Below, piece by piece: positions 20,274 through 25,075 of a stretch of 35,562 bases of DNA (the stretch's first letter is position 1; every line of letters starts with the position of its first letter). A program made the position numbers and the translations under genes. The stretch covers positions 1 to 35,562 of the forward strand of contig CAKZOR010000026.1 in assembly GCA_937136755.1 (NCBI GenBank), given 5' to 3'. This DNA is from an uncultured Flavobacteriaceae bacterium. Lineage in GTDB: Bacteria > Bacteroidota > Bacteroidia > Flavobacteriales > Flavobacteriaceae. The notes below the pieces were generated by a model. That model saw only the letters and a list, made by a program, of their open reading frames with translations. It did not search any database and was not told the DNA's origin.

Positions 20274-21041
20274 TTATTTTGCCGTTTGTAGTGTTAAAGA
20301 GGTTCCGTCATAAACTCCATAGGTGTAGTGAGAGATCCAATCCCCAGTGTTTAGGTAGGTGGTATTTTCTGCTACAGCGATCTCTAAGGGTAAATGTCTG
20401 TGCCCAAACACAAAATAGTCGTAGTGTTTTTGGGTGAGTTTTCTCTTGGCGTACTGTACCAACCATTCACCTTCTTCTCCCAGAAAAACCACATCTTCTT
20501 CACCAGAGATGAGTTTGTTTTTAACCGAGAGGTAATGGCCTAAAGAAACGCCAATATCTGGATGAAGCCATTTGAAAAACCATTTAGCTAATGGGTTGGT
20601 AAATACTTTTTTCATTCTTTTAAATCCCTTGTCTCCAGGACCCAAACCATCTCCATGACCAATTAAAAAAGTCTTATGATCAATCCTAAATTCTTGGGGT
20701 TTGTGGAATACTTGAATGCCTAATTCATCTTCAAAATACCCATGCATCCATAAATCATGGTTTCCCACAAAGTAATAAATAGGGATTCCAGCGTCTGAAA
20801 GTTCCGCTAATTTACCAAGTGTTCGGGTAAATCCCTTCGGGACTACTGTTTTGTATTCAAACCAAAAATCAAAAAGGTCCCCTAAAAGAAAAACGGCAGC
20901 AGCAGAGTCTTTAATAGTATCTAACCAAGAAACAAATTTCTTTTCCCTTGGCAAACTTTCCGCTGCACTAGGTGCTCCGAGGTGATTGTCACTGGCAAAA
21001 TAGATTTTTTTACCGTCTGTAAGGGATATTTCTTGTGTCAT
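20274..21041 (-). CDS. lpxH: UDP-2,3-diacylglucosamine diphosphatase (calcineurin-like phosphoesterase)
   Basis: IYFASDNHLGAP, FLLGDLFDFWFE, FVGNHDLWM, IGHGDGLGP, FGHRHLP. Start trimmed to 21041, which removes an overlap with queD. Confidence 0.9.
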   Translation of the reverse strand: MTQEISLTDGKKIYFASDNHLGAPSAAESLPREKKFVSWLDTIKDSAAAVFLLGDLFDFWFEYKTVVPKGFTRTLGKLAELSDAGIPIYYFVGNHDLWMHGYFEDELGIQVFHKPQEFRIDHKTFLIGHGDGLGPGDKGFKRMKKVFTNPLAKWFFKWLHPDIGVSLGHYLSVKNKLISGEEDVVFLGEEGEWLVQYAKRKLTQKHYDYFVFGHRHLPLEIAVAENTTYLNTGDWISHYTYGVYDGTSLTLQTAK

Positions 21042-21063
21042 AAAGCCTAAAGATAGTAAACAG

Positions 21064-21513
21064 CTAGTTATCTGAGGCAAACCATTCTGCAAAGGAACTG
21101 TCTGTCTCTTGAAGCTTCAAGGAGAATAAAGTAATATTTTTTGGCAATCTGGCTTTAATTTTATCTGCAAAATCCAGCACCATATTTTCTGAGGTTGGCT
21201 GGTAGTCTGCCAAAATAACAGCGTGCCCTCTGTTTGTCAATTCTTTGGCTAACTCAATATGAGGTGTATTTTTATTAAATACTGTGGCGTGGTCAAATAC
21301 ATCTACCACTTCTTCTTTGACAATTTTTTTCAGATCAGAAAAGTCAATTACCATTCCGAGTTTTACAGCGCCTTTTTCTTCTATAGGACTTCCAATGACG
21401 GTCACAGACAGTTTGTAGCTGTGGCCGTGAACATTTCTGCATTTTCCGTCATAGCCAAATAAAGCATGGCCGGTTTCAAAACTAAACTGTTTGGTAATTC
21501 TAATTTTGCTCAT
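21064..21513 (-). CDS. queD: 6-carboxytetrahydropterin synthase
   Basis: FSFETGHALFGYDGKCRNVHGHSYKLSVTV (Cys plus HxH), DFSDLKKIV, DHATVFN, PTSENMV. Confidence 0.93.
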   Translation of the reverse strand: MSKIRITKQFSFETGHALFGYDGKCRNVHGHSYKLSVTVIGSPIEEKGAVKLGMVIDFSDLKKIVKEEVVDVFDHATVFNKNTPHIELAKELTNRGHAVILADYQPTSENMVLDFADKIKARLPKNITLFSLKLQETDSSFAEWFASDN

Positions 21514-21599: not shown

Positions 21600-22244
21600 G
21601 TGGCTGCATTGTACCGCGAAATGGATTTCGAATTAGACCCATTGTTCGAAACCATTATTTCAGATTTAATGACCCAAGACTATAGTATAGTGGATCATTT
21701 TATAGACCCTAAAACGGTTGCTTTATTGAGGCATTCTCTCTTGGTACACTTTGAGGAGGATCGCTTTAAAAAGGCCGCTATTGGAAGTAAAACCAATGAA
21801 GTCATAGCGACAGCTATACGAGGGGATTATATTTTATGGATAGATGAAAAGATCCAGACCCAAGTAGAAACCTTATTCTTTAAAAGATTAAATGATTTGG
21901 TAGCCTATTTGAATAGGACCTGTTTTTTAGGAATACTTCAGACAGAATTCCATTATGCCTTGTACCCTCCAGGCACTGGATATAAAAGACATTTAGATAC
22001 TTTTCAAAACGACCACAAAAGAAAGCTTTCTATTGCGTTTTATTTAAACCCTGAGGACTGGGCAGAGACGGACGGAGGTGCACTGGCCCTTTATCTAGAG
22101 GGTGCTCAAAGAGTGGAGAAGACCGTAATAGTGCCCCCTTTAGCAGGTAGGATGGTTATTTTTGAAAGTCAAAAAATCCCTCATGAAGTATTAAAAGCAC
22201 ACAGAGATAGGCTCAGTATTACCGGCTGGCTTAAAACGAGTTAA
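21600..22244 (+). CDS. 2OG-Fe(II) oxygenase (prolyl 4-hydroxylase/SM-20-like)
   Basis: HxD in GYKRHLDTF, distal H in PHEVLKAH and Arg in RDRLSITGW; double-stranded beta-helix layout. Start GTG 21600 or ATG 21621. Confidence 0.87.
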   Translation: MAALYREMDFELDPLFETIISDLMTQDYSIVDHFIDPKTVALLRHSLLVHFEEDRFKKAAIGSKTNEVIATAIRGDYILWIDEKIQTQVETLFFKRLNDLVAYLNRTCFLGILQTEFHYALYPPGTGYKRHLDTFQNDHKRKLSIAFYLNPEDWAETDGGALALYLEGAQRVEKTVIVPPLAGRMVIFESQKIPHEVLKAHRDRLSITGWLKTS

Positions 22245-22343
22245 TTATTTTCGTTTGAACTTTTTGTTGTTCCTGAATTTATTAAAAAAGTATATTACCC
22301 CTACGACTAAAGCGAGTGCCGCGAATAGAAAGTTTTGATTCAT
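22245..22343 (-). CDS. Putative 32-aa single-TM basic-tailed microprotein
   Basis: Reverse strand reads ATGAATCAAAAC...AAACGAAAATAA = MNQNFLFAALALVVGVIYFFNKFRNNKKFKRK. Fits exactly between the 2OG oxygenase stop and the enoyl-CoA hydratase stop. Not in the supplied ORF track (below the size cutoff). Confidence 0.6.
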   Translation of the reverse strand: MNQNFLFAALALVVGVIYFFNKFRNNKKFKRK

Positions 22344-22347
22344 GAGC

Positions 22348-23100
22348 TTATTTTATAAATGATTTAAATGCCGTCTGAGCTTGTTCTGTTAAAGCCAGGG
22401 CTGCAGTTTTTGCTGCATTGGCATCTAATAGGTCACCCCAATGATCGGTGCCTTGCCAAGCTGTTTTTTTTATTTGACACAGGGCTTTTTCACTGTATTG
22501 TGCCAGGGCTAAAACCCATGTATTTGTCTCTGTAGTTAAGCCTTCTTGAGTTTTAGTAAGTTGGTTAAATAACCCGCTTTCTACTCCCCATTGTGCCCGC
22601 TTCCATTGGGTTGGTTCAAGGCTTAAATGAGTGAAATTACTCACCCCAATTTTTCGAATGACCGCTGGTGCAATCACCAAAGGTCCAATCCCTATAAATA
22701 ATTCCGAAAGTCTTATTTCGCTATTGGGACCAGCAATCACGTAGTCACTTGCAGCAATAATTCCAACACCGCCTCCCACGGCTTTTCCTTGAACTTTGGT
22801 TACAATTATTTTAGGAGACGCTTTCATTTCTAGTATTAAACGACCAAATCCCTTGAAAAATTCCGTAGCAGTTTTCAGGTCTTTTAAATCAGATAAATGG
22901 GTTATAGATGCGCCTGCACAGAAAGCTTTTTCTCCTCCAGACTGCAGTAATATGATTTTAACCGCGGAATGTCCAGCAAGATTTTTTATGCTATCTGCCA
23001 TTTCTGCTAACATTTCCGGATCGCAGGAATTACTCGCTGGATGCTGAAAAGTTATGGTGGCAATGGAATTATCTATTTGAGTGTGAACAGTCCCTTTCAT
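22348..23100 (-). CDS. Enoyl-CoA hydratase/isomerase family protein
   Basis: KAFCAGASITHLSDL, GKAVGGGVGIIAASDYVIAG, crotonase fold. Confidence 0.92.
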   Translation of the reverse strand: MKGTVHTQIDNSIATITFQHPASNSCDPEMLAEMADSIKNLAGHSAVKIILLQSGGEKAFCAGASITHLSDLKDLKTATEFFKGFGRLILEMKASPKIIVTKVQGKAVGGGVGIIAASDYVIAGPNSEIRLSELFIGIGPLVIAPAVIRKIGVSNFTHLSLEPTQWKRAQWGVESGLFNQLTKTQEGLTTETNTWVLALAQYSEKALCQIKKTAWQGTDHWGDLLDANAAKTAALALTEQAQTAFKSFIK

Positions 23101-23107
23101 AATTAAT

Positions 23108-24454
23108 TTAAATGTAAGCGTTTTGTTTTAGGGGTAAAAATTTTCTTCTGAATTTCCAGATTAAGGCCACCCCCCTAGCCAGCATCCAACAACCAAATGC
23201 CACCCATATCCCGGTGAGTCTGCCGTTTAAAAAATCGTTTAGTAAAACAAGGGGGACAAATATTCCAAAGGAAGTAAAAAGCAATACATTTCTCAAAAAC
23301 TTCATTTCTCCCAAGCCCTTAAACATTCCGTCTAATACAAAGGCAACGCCATTGGTAGGTAAACAGATTAGTAAGATAAAGAACACCTCATTAAACGCTG
23401 TTAAAGTATCTTTATTTTCGGAAAATAGACCCCCTATATTATCGTAAAATAGGGTTCCAAACACAGTTAGTATACCACCCATAACAAAACCAAAAAAGGC
23501 AACTTTTTTAGCTAATTCCCATAGGTCAGGATAGTTTTTGGCTCCTAAAAGCTTCCCACCAATACTATTTCCAGCAGTGCCATACCCCTCAATAAAAAAA
23601 GCGGAGAACAACCACAAATTGAGCAATATGGTGTGGGCGCCAATAAATGTGGTGCCCATAGCCGTAGCCTCCCTAACGGACAGAATTAAAGTGGTATTTA
23701 ATGCCAGAGAGCGCACAAAGAGATTGGCACTCATACCGATGATGTTTTTTAATTCTGGATGAATAGGGCCTTTAACGATCAGAGGGAAATCTGTTTTTTT
23801 AAAGAGGAGTGTTAAAGCAAAAGTGGCCATTACTATTTGAGAAATTAGACTGGCCCAGGCAGCGCCTTCGAGTTGCATTGGAGCCACAAAACCCTCTATG
23901 CCATAAACCAACATAAAATCTAATCCTACATTTAGAAAAGCCCCTGTTAAAGCAACCGCCATAGGCCATAAGGTGTTCTGCAGACCTCTAAATACACCAA
24001 ACACTCCAAAGGTAAAAAGGGTGAGTGGGAAGCCCCATATTCGAATGCTAAAGTATTGCTCACACATCTCAAGCAAAGGGCCAGAGGCATTCATTAGCGT
24101 AAATATCTCTGTTTTAAAAATCATACTAATACTGAGCACTACTATACTGATGGAAACATTCACATACATGGCCTGCATGGGCAAGGCCTTAATCCCATCT
24201 AAATTGTCTTTTCCTAGGTATTGAGAGACCAATGCGGAAATAGCACTTTGGGTTTGCCCCAACACCCAAACCAGCATAGAGAGAAAGGAACCTACTATTC
24301 CAGCAGCCGCTAATGCTTGAGCACCTTGAACAGGTATATTTCCCACAATAGCGGTATCTGTTAAAGATAAAAAGGGCTCTGCTACACCTGCAATAGTTGC
24401 AGGAATGGCCAAGCGATGAATTCTTTTGAGGGGATTTTCTGTATTTTGTCTCAC
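23108..24454 (-). CDS. MATE family efflux transporter (DinF-like)
   Basis: IHRLAIPATIAGVAEPFLSLTDTAIVGNI..., about 12 TM segments. Confidence 0.9.
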   Translation of the reverse strand: MRQNTENPLKRIHRLAIPATIAGVAEPFLSLTDTAIVGNIPVQGAQALAAAGIVGSFLSMLVWVLGQTQSAISALVSQYLGKDNLDGIKALPMQAMYVNVSISIVVLSISMIFKTEIFTLMNASGPLLEMCEQYFSIRIWGFPLTLFTFGVFGVFRGLQNTLWPMAVALTGAFLNVGLDFMLVYGIEGFVAPMQLEGAAWASLISQIVMATFALTLLFKKTDFPLIVKGPIHPELKNIIGMSANLFVRSLALNTTLILSVREATAMGTTFIGAHTILLNLWLFSAFFIEGYGTAGNSIGGKLLGAKNYPDLWELAKKVAFFGFVMGGILTVFGTLFYDNIGGLFSENKDTLTAFNEVFFILLICLPTNGVAFVLDGMFKGLGEMKFLRNVLLFTSFGIFVPLVLLNDFLNGRLTGIWVAFGCWMLARGVALIWKFRRKFLPLKQNAYI

Positions 24455-24462
24455 TTTGTATG

Positions 24463-24966
24463 TTATGAAATGGGCAGTTCAAAACAATGAAAAGGGGCTT
24501 TGCTCTTAATAGGGAAATAAATATCTCCTAGCCTTGAATAGCCTCTCTTAGTGTAGAAAGCCACATTTTTCTCATTTAAGCTAAAAGTATCTAGGCGCAC
24601 TGATTGAAAGCCTTCTTTTCTCGCTTTATTTTCTGCAAAATCCATGAGTGCTTTAGCGTATCCTTTGCCTTGGGCAATTGGGTGCACACAAAGCCTATGT
24701 ATGTACATGTTTTTCCCTGTAGGGCACTTCCATTCAATAGCTTCGTAAAAAGGGTCTTTAAAATCACTTATTACAACAGCTCCCAGCACCTTTTCCTCTT
24801 GTTCAAAAGCATATAATTCTTCGCGATCTAGGTCTTTCTGAAATACTTCTACACTAGGATATTGTTCGTTCCATTGAAATATACCATTTGCGATCATATG
24901 TCTTGCACACGATTGGGTGATTTCTAAAATGAATGGCAGGTCTTTTGCTTTTGCGGGTCTAATCAT
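24463..24966 (-). CDS. GNAT family N-acetyltransferase
   Basis: MIRPAKAKDLPFILEI, YIHRLCVHPIAQGKGYAKALMDFAE acetyl-CoA binding motif. Confidence 0.93.
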   Translation of the reverse strand: MIRPAKAKDLPFILEITQSCARHMIANGIFQWNEQYPSVEVFQKDLDREELYAFEQEEKVLGAVVISDFKDPFYEAIEWKCPTGKNMYIHRLCVHPIAQGKGYAKALMDFAENKARKEGFQSVRLDTFSLNEKNVAFYTKRGYSRLGDIYFPIKSKAPFHCFELPIS

Positions 24967-25075
24967 ATATACTTTTCTGTCAGCTCATATTAGTACTGGC
25001 GTATTATTAATCACAAATTTATAGTATATTCATGGTAGTTTAATACCTAATTCTAAATATACCTAACATCTCGTT

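Follow-up and report, generated by a model that had tools for sequence, protein, structure and literature searches.

A conserved family of predicted one-helix membrane microproteins encoded downstream of a MATE exporter gene in Flavobacteriaceae

The window examined here, a stretch of 35,562 nt from an uncultured Flavobacteriaceae bacterium, contains a gap of 103 nt between an enoyl-CoA hydratase/isomerase family gene (ECH) and a convergent 2OG-Fe(II) oxygenase gene (2OG), and the locus raises the question whether a gene is hidden in this gap and, if so, with which protein its product works. An earlier note on this DNA had claimed a 32-aa ORF on the minus strand of the gap, missing from the ORF list. 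The ORF is present and its peptide, MNQNFLFAALALVVGVIYFFNKFRNNKKFKRK, starting with ATG, is exactly as claimed; it is indeed unlisted, and its shortness is presumably the cause. A longer start is impossible because the in-frame sequence TAA AAT AAG CTC precedes the ATG. The spacing of 4 nt from the ECH stop was confirmed as well (the ECH ORF ends at 22348 and GCTC precedes the ATG), and plus-strand positions 22242–22247 read TAATTA, so that the stop codons of the microprotein and of the convergent 2OG gene touch, as had been noted. The tight packing had been read as typical of a real small membrane protein, but stop-to-stop abutment is confined to loci that have the optional opposing 2OG gene and is thus uninformative on function. 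Judging from the 4-nt gap and an order that is kept in relatives, co-transcription of the microprotein with the upstream same-strand genes is plausible. The features of the locus are collected in Table 1.

Table 1. Features of the microprotein locus (coordinates of the window)
Feature	Coordinates	Strand	Evidence and remarks
Microprotein gene (family A)	22245..22343	-	32 aa; ORF, homologs, synonymous-biased substitution, AF2 helix
ECH (enoyl-CoA hydratase/isomerase family)	22348..23100	-	Pfam ECH_1 E=9e-30; 4 nt upstream, optional
MATE family efflux transporter	23108..24454	-	TIGR00797 matE 233 bits, cut-off 147
GNAT acetyltransferase	24463..24966	-	Acetyltransf_1 E=7e-19; would head a putative GNAT-MATE-ECH-microprotein unit
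Possible Bacteroidota-type -7 element TAAATTTG (TAnnTTTG)	25014..25021	-	5' of GNAT start; weak, pattern match, -7 element only
2OG-Fe(II) oxygenase	21600..22244	+	2OG-FeII_Oxy_3 E=2e-21; convergent, optional insertion between microprotein and QueD
QueD / 6-pyruvoyl tetrahydropterin synthase family gene	21064..21513	-	PTPS E=5e-29; next on microprotein strand
LpxH-like UDP-2,3-diacylglucosamine diphosphatase	20274..21092	-	NF003743 E=2e-24, below curated cut-off; ends neighbourhood

Shuffling of the gap provides a first measure of chance. Among 5000 composition shuffles of the 103 nt, 1.3% gave an ATG ORF of at least 30 aa, and none of the 5000 gave one with a TM-grade hydrophobic core. Conservation argues much more strongly against a chance ORF than this shuffling does. 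A peptide search in 60 related genomes found same-genus copies with identities of 100, 97, 97, 88–90, 67 and 66%, each directly after ECH, while the identity of ECH in same-genus genomes (91, 88, 82 and 56%) is lower than that of the microprotein (100, 97, 97 and 88–90%). Among named genomes, those of Flavobacteria bacterium MS024-3C (L197), LSUCC0859 (L198) and a MAG labelled Sediminicola (L196) come nearest. The three closest copies differ by 4, 10 and 12 nt, nearly all at third positions, with 0, 1 and 1 residues changed. Synonymous/nonsynonymous codons for these copies are 4/0, 8/1 and 11/1, Nei-Gojobori dS is 0.24, 0.71 and 1.04 as compared with dN of 0, 0.013 and 0.013, and P from Monte Carlo redistribution of these substitutions was 0.012, 0.0004 and 0 in 20000, respectively. 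Across Flavobacteriaceae, pS of 0.50 and pN of 0.064 were obtained by pooling 16 pairs.

Comparison of the two strands leads in the same direction: the mean identity was 0.65 in the sense frame versus 0.48 in the antisense frame, and 0.73 versus 0.53 in a second comparison. The antisense ORF (22255–22338, plus strand) was considered as a gene and rejected, as it is broken in LSUCC0859 and most relatives and only 25 of the 104 members of the family have it free of stops; its apparent conservation among the nearest genomes is a mirror effect of third codon positions lying opposite each other. All 104 members have an open sense frame as a consequence of how they were found, and this was excluded as evidence. 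The ORF is short and without match to curated families, as would be expected of a chance ORF in the gap that is no gene. Nevertheless, the pattern of codon substitution in effect rules that reading out, and family-wide homologs and synteny also speak against it; we regard it as exceedingly improbable. On the pattern of sequence change, the ORF is almost certainly a protein-coding gene, and the homologs, the synonymous-biased substitution, the constant charge asymmetry and the synteny together bear out the earlier view of it as a real small membrane protein.

The AF2 model of the window microprotein predicts one helix spanning residues 3–29 with a mean pLDDT of 82, and the basic tail comprises residues 22–32. 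In the family to which it belongs, family A hereafter, 104/104 members are more positively charged on the C-terminal side than on the N-terminal one. Both results agree with the hydrophobic helix and basic tail that had been read from the letters. From this charge asymmetry, the N-out/C-in topology is expected for family A by the positive-inside rule. ECH-type lineages have the consensus xxxFLNGDxxFPxLALxVVVIYFxNRxRxxRKxKR, and that of other lineages is close to MDIMSFLSGNGLFLLLALVLIIVYxVNRRKRR. The window protein has the traits by which membrane microproteins are recognized, namely a length of at most ~50 aa, a single (here predicted) TM helix and a positive-inside bias, and it shows the coding selection expected of the bitopic bacterial ones.

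Family A is without a match in Pfam, NCBIfam and the PDB. Weak Pfam matches to Gram_pos_anchor, BatA and FixQ (the last with E=0.008 in 1 of 22 members) were below cut-offs, look like hydrophobic-helix noise and were rejected, and the best match in a PDB profile search was PsaM with E of only 0.12. The locus and the family were absent from the open-access literature searched. The genes of family A apparently make up a hitherto undescribed family, of the known kind of one-helix membrane microproteins.

At E ≤ 0.05, a ten-sequence profile of family A gave matches, some of them weak, in 176 of the 301 Flavobacteriaceae genomes and only three matches, all weak, outside Flavobacteriaceae in an order-level sample. 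Named examples are Zobellia, Maribacter, Arenibacter, Cellulophaga, Aquimarina, Polaribacter and Pricia. The gene is single-copy in most genomes; tandem copies occur in G022, G207, G262 and G224. In Pricia antarctica (L254) and at L100 (genome G324), two copies lie ~3.7 kb apart with an insertion splitting the locus, one copy after ECH and the other before QueD. At L176, in the same-genus genome G004, the microprotein is lacking, and 34 nt separate the end of the ECH match from QueD.

The surroundings of the gene were read at 102 family A loci. The neighbours played no part in selecting the matches, and therefore synteny independently supports even the weak profile matches. In 96/102 loci, a same-strand MATE or ECH gene precedes the microprotein; MATE, found upstream in 87, is the most constant upstream neighbour, and ECH is near in 44 and absent nearby in 58. 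QueD follows within 1.5 kb downstream in 83 of the loci and within 30 nt in 32, and in most of them QueD and LpxH come next. The convergent 2OG gene was observed within 100 nt in 29/102. The full conserved order is GNAT-MATE-(ECH)-microprotein-(2OG, opposite)-QueD-LpxH, the window carries it complete, and GNAT precedes MATE in many relatives. Generic promoter and terminator scans found fewer sites than in shuffles.

The expectation that the ORF would be conserved downstream of crotonase-family genes held only in part. The ORF is conserved with synonymous bias; the link to the crotonase is incidental, and ECH was rejected as the partner given its absence near 58 of the loci. Among these first 102 loci, tails of at least 13 residues were observed in 44/44 with ECH and tails of at most 10 residues in 53/58 without it. 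A long basic tail tracking ECH was likewise rejected, as Aquimarina combines ECH with a short tail (L229, L232, L240), and the relation looks like a clade effect.

Two further observations were made in the neighbourhood. The LpxH-like ORF, as listed, starts with TTG inside QueD, giving an overlap of 29 nt (window 21064–21092), and translation probably begins at an ATG further downstream. At L072, L085, L098, L105 and L108, a conserved multi-TM protein of ~160 aa (EIKWG...EK..GWHD), possibly DUF4199-like, is encoded between ECH and the microprotein.

The slot can also hold a further, uncharacterized one-helix protein of ~57 aa, family B, with the motif IEEKIKNAPDSxYEIGVFIGSxLPF. It is encoded between MATE and the microprotein in many of the loci that lack ECH, while Flavobacterium species have family B alone, between ECH and QueD (for example MTIISLMQKVDIAEKIKDAPDSGYQIGVVIGSFIPFLVLGGIALWMYTRAKKRAKNGN). 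Family B was located at L120, 278–108 nt before the family A stop, and at L221, L263 and L265 upstream of QueD. The two families share the neighbourhood slot, the single helix and the basic tail. Family B differs in an extra N-terminal segment with IEEKIKNAP, which is absent from the window protein, and it often coexists upstream of family A, which makes it a different gene. Profile-profile comparison of A with B gave a probability of 93.9% with E=1.6e-7, as compared with 14% for reversed B and at most 26% for TM-shuffled B. The two families are probably old duplicates; homology is likely though the alignment is short. An overlapping pair of one-helix small proteins, MSLFQEHLPKDRPATREEEWGFTLWEF... 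followed by MSEDTWEIFSFLSGMGFWLILAVILIVVVIYSRYKK, was found in this slot, upstream of 2OG/QueD, at L168, L169 and L173 and is possibly a divergent B and A.

What could such a protein do? One-helix microproteins of such features often bind a larger membrane protein. We tentatively propose, as a reading that falls somewhat short of probable, that the microprotein is an accessory helix for a polytopic inner-membrane protein, the first candidate partner being the MATE exporter encoded upstream. In the window, the gene would be transcribed as the last of the same-strand run GNAT-MATE-ECH-microprotein, and the product, once translated, would insert as a bitopic inner-membrane helix with the Lys/Arg-rich tail in the cytoplasm and a short N-terminus, neutral or acidic, on the outer side. 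The helix would pack against the polytopic protein and tune its stability or activity, while the basic tail would fix the orientation and contact the cytoplasmic face or acidic lipids. Family B would, in genomes that have it, accompany family A or take its place.

By analogy, family A may work like the accessory microproteins AcrZ and CydX (PMC7267776, PMC4325964). AcrZ, which acts with AcrB (PMC7267776), is likewise a one-helix inner-membrane microprotein, and the possible partner of family A is also an exporter; unlike AcrZ, family A is encoded beside the exporter, which is a MATE protein and not an RND pump. As to homology, no AcrZ family was among the Pfam/NCBIfam matches and no AcrZ chain was found in the PDB profile search, and family A is tied to a transporter by gene linkage to MATE. 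The CydX-type oxidase microproteins resemble family A as small bitopic proteins that are conserved in place across a large clade and for whose recognition synteny counts as much as sequence (PMC4325964). However, the neighbours of family A are MATE, ECH, QueD and LpxH with no oxidase genes nearby, and neither the oxidase-gene neighbours nor the profile match that mark CydX/CcoQ-type proteins were found, Pfam and NCBIfam giving no sequence match apart from the weak FixQ match mentioned above.

At the genome level, an ortholog-grade MATE was detected in 22 of 24 family A genomes chosen for atypical neighbourhoods (missing from 2) and in 17 of 30 genomes without family A (missing from 13). None of the six genomes of group g148 has it, and the g148 loci fit the pattern of named Flavobacterium. 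This co-occurrence is mildly supportive of the MATE-accessory model; the correlation is confounded by phylogeny, and in a tree-based test on independent pairs only 2 pairs were usable. Conversely, MATE-(ECH)-QueD synteny is kept without family A in the same-genus genome G004, in G013, G076 and others. Different near-complete genomes retain family A without a MATE ortholog (G169, G260), without a QueD match (G211, G200, G121, G264) or without ECH nearby. No neighbour is obligatory for family A.

These genomes are what one would expect if the partner is encoded elsewhere, for instance in a respiratory, Sec or envelope complex, or if the protein acts on the bulk membrane and the neighbourhood is merely its home. 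Some known one-helix microproteins do serve complexes encoded elsewhere, and the AcrZ gene is not beside acrB. We consider this quite possible if somewhat doubtful, as the family-wide retention of MATE or ECH upstream on the same strand exceeds the linkage that an unrelated partner would call for. A role with QueD and/or LpxH, either as a basic-tail membrane anchor recruiting the enzymes or through translational coupling to QueD, would account for the 32 loci in which QueD starts within 30 nt and for those where the microprotein still adjoins QueD although MATE and ECH now lie elsewhere (L090, L098, L099, L100, L144). It is distinctly unlikely in view of the four near-complete genomes that keep family A without a QueD match, and of the opposing 2OG gene that separates the microprotein from QueD in the window and at other loci; the linkage to LpxH is uninformative because LpxH is expected in all these bacteria. 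The size, the single helix, the basic tail and the tandem copies mentioned above would also suit a small toxic hydrophobic peptide similar to the type I toxins TisB and TimP. Against this, the gene is mostly single-copy, has a fixed position in a housekeeping-like neighbourhood across the family and lies downstream in a same-strand gene run rather than in its own transcription unit, so that a toxin is very improbable here.

The accessory-helix proposal can be extended to both families, with A and B as duplicated one-helix proteins that jointly form a dedicated MATE regulatory module and with B alone repurposed in Flavobacterium, where the MATE of this locus was undetected. We hold this extension to be unlikely; if true, the module would provide, to our knowledge, the first small-protein subunits of the MATE family.

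For Flavobacteriaceae, a major bacterial family in the sea and in soils, the analysis brings an apparently uncharacterized conserved protein family together with a companion that is likely its paralog, and the position of the family A gene makes its function testable. Moreover, it indicates that genes of 25–40 codons, which lie below the usual annotation cut-offs, are recoverable from raw sequence by means of synteny and codon substitution patterns.
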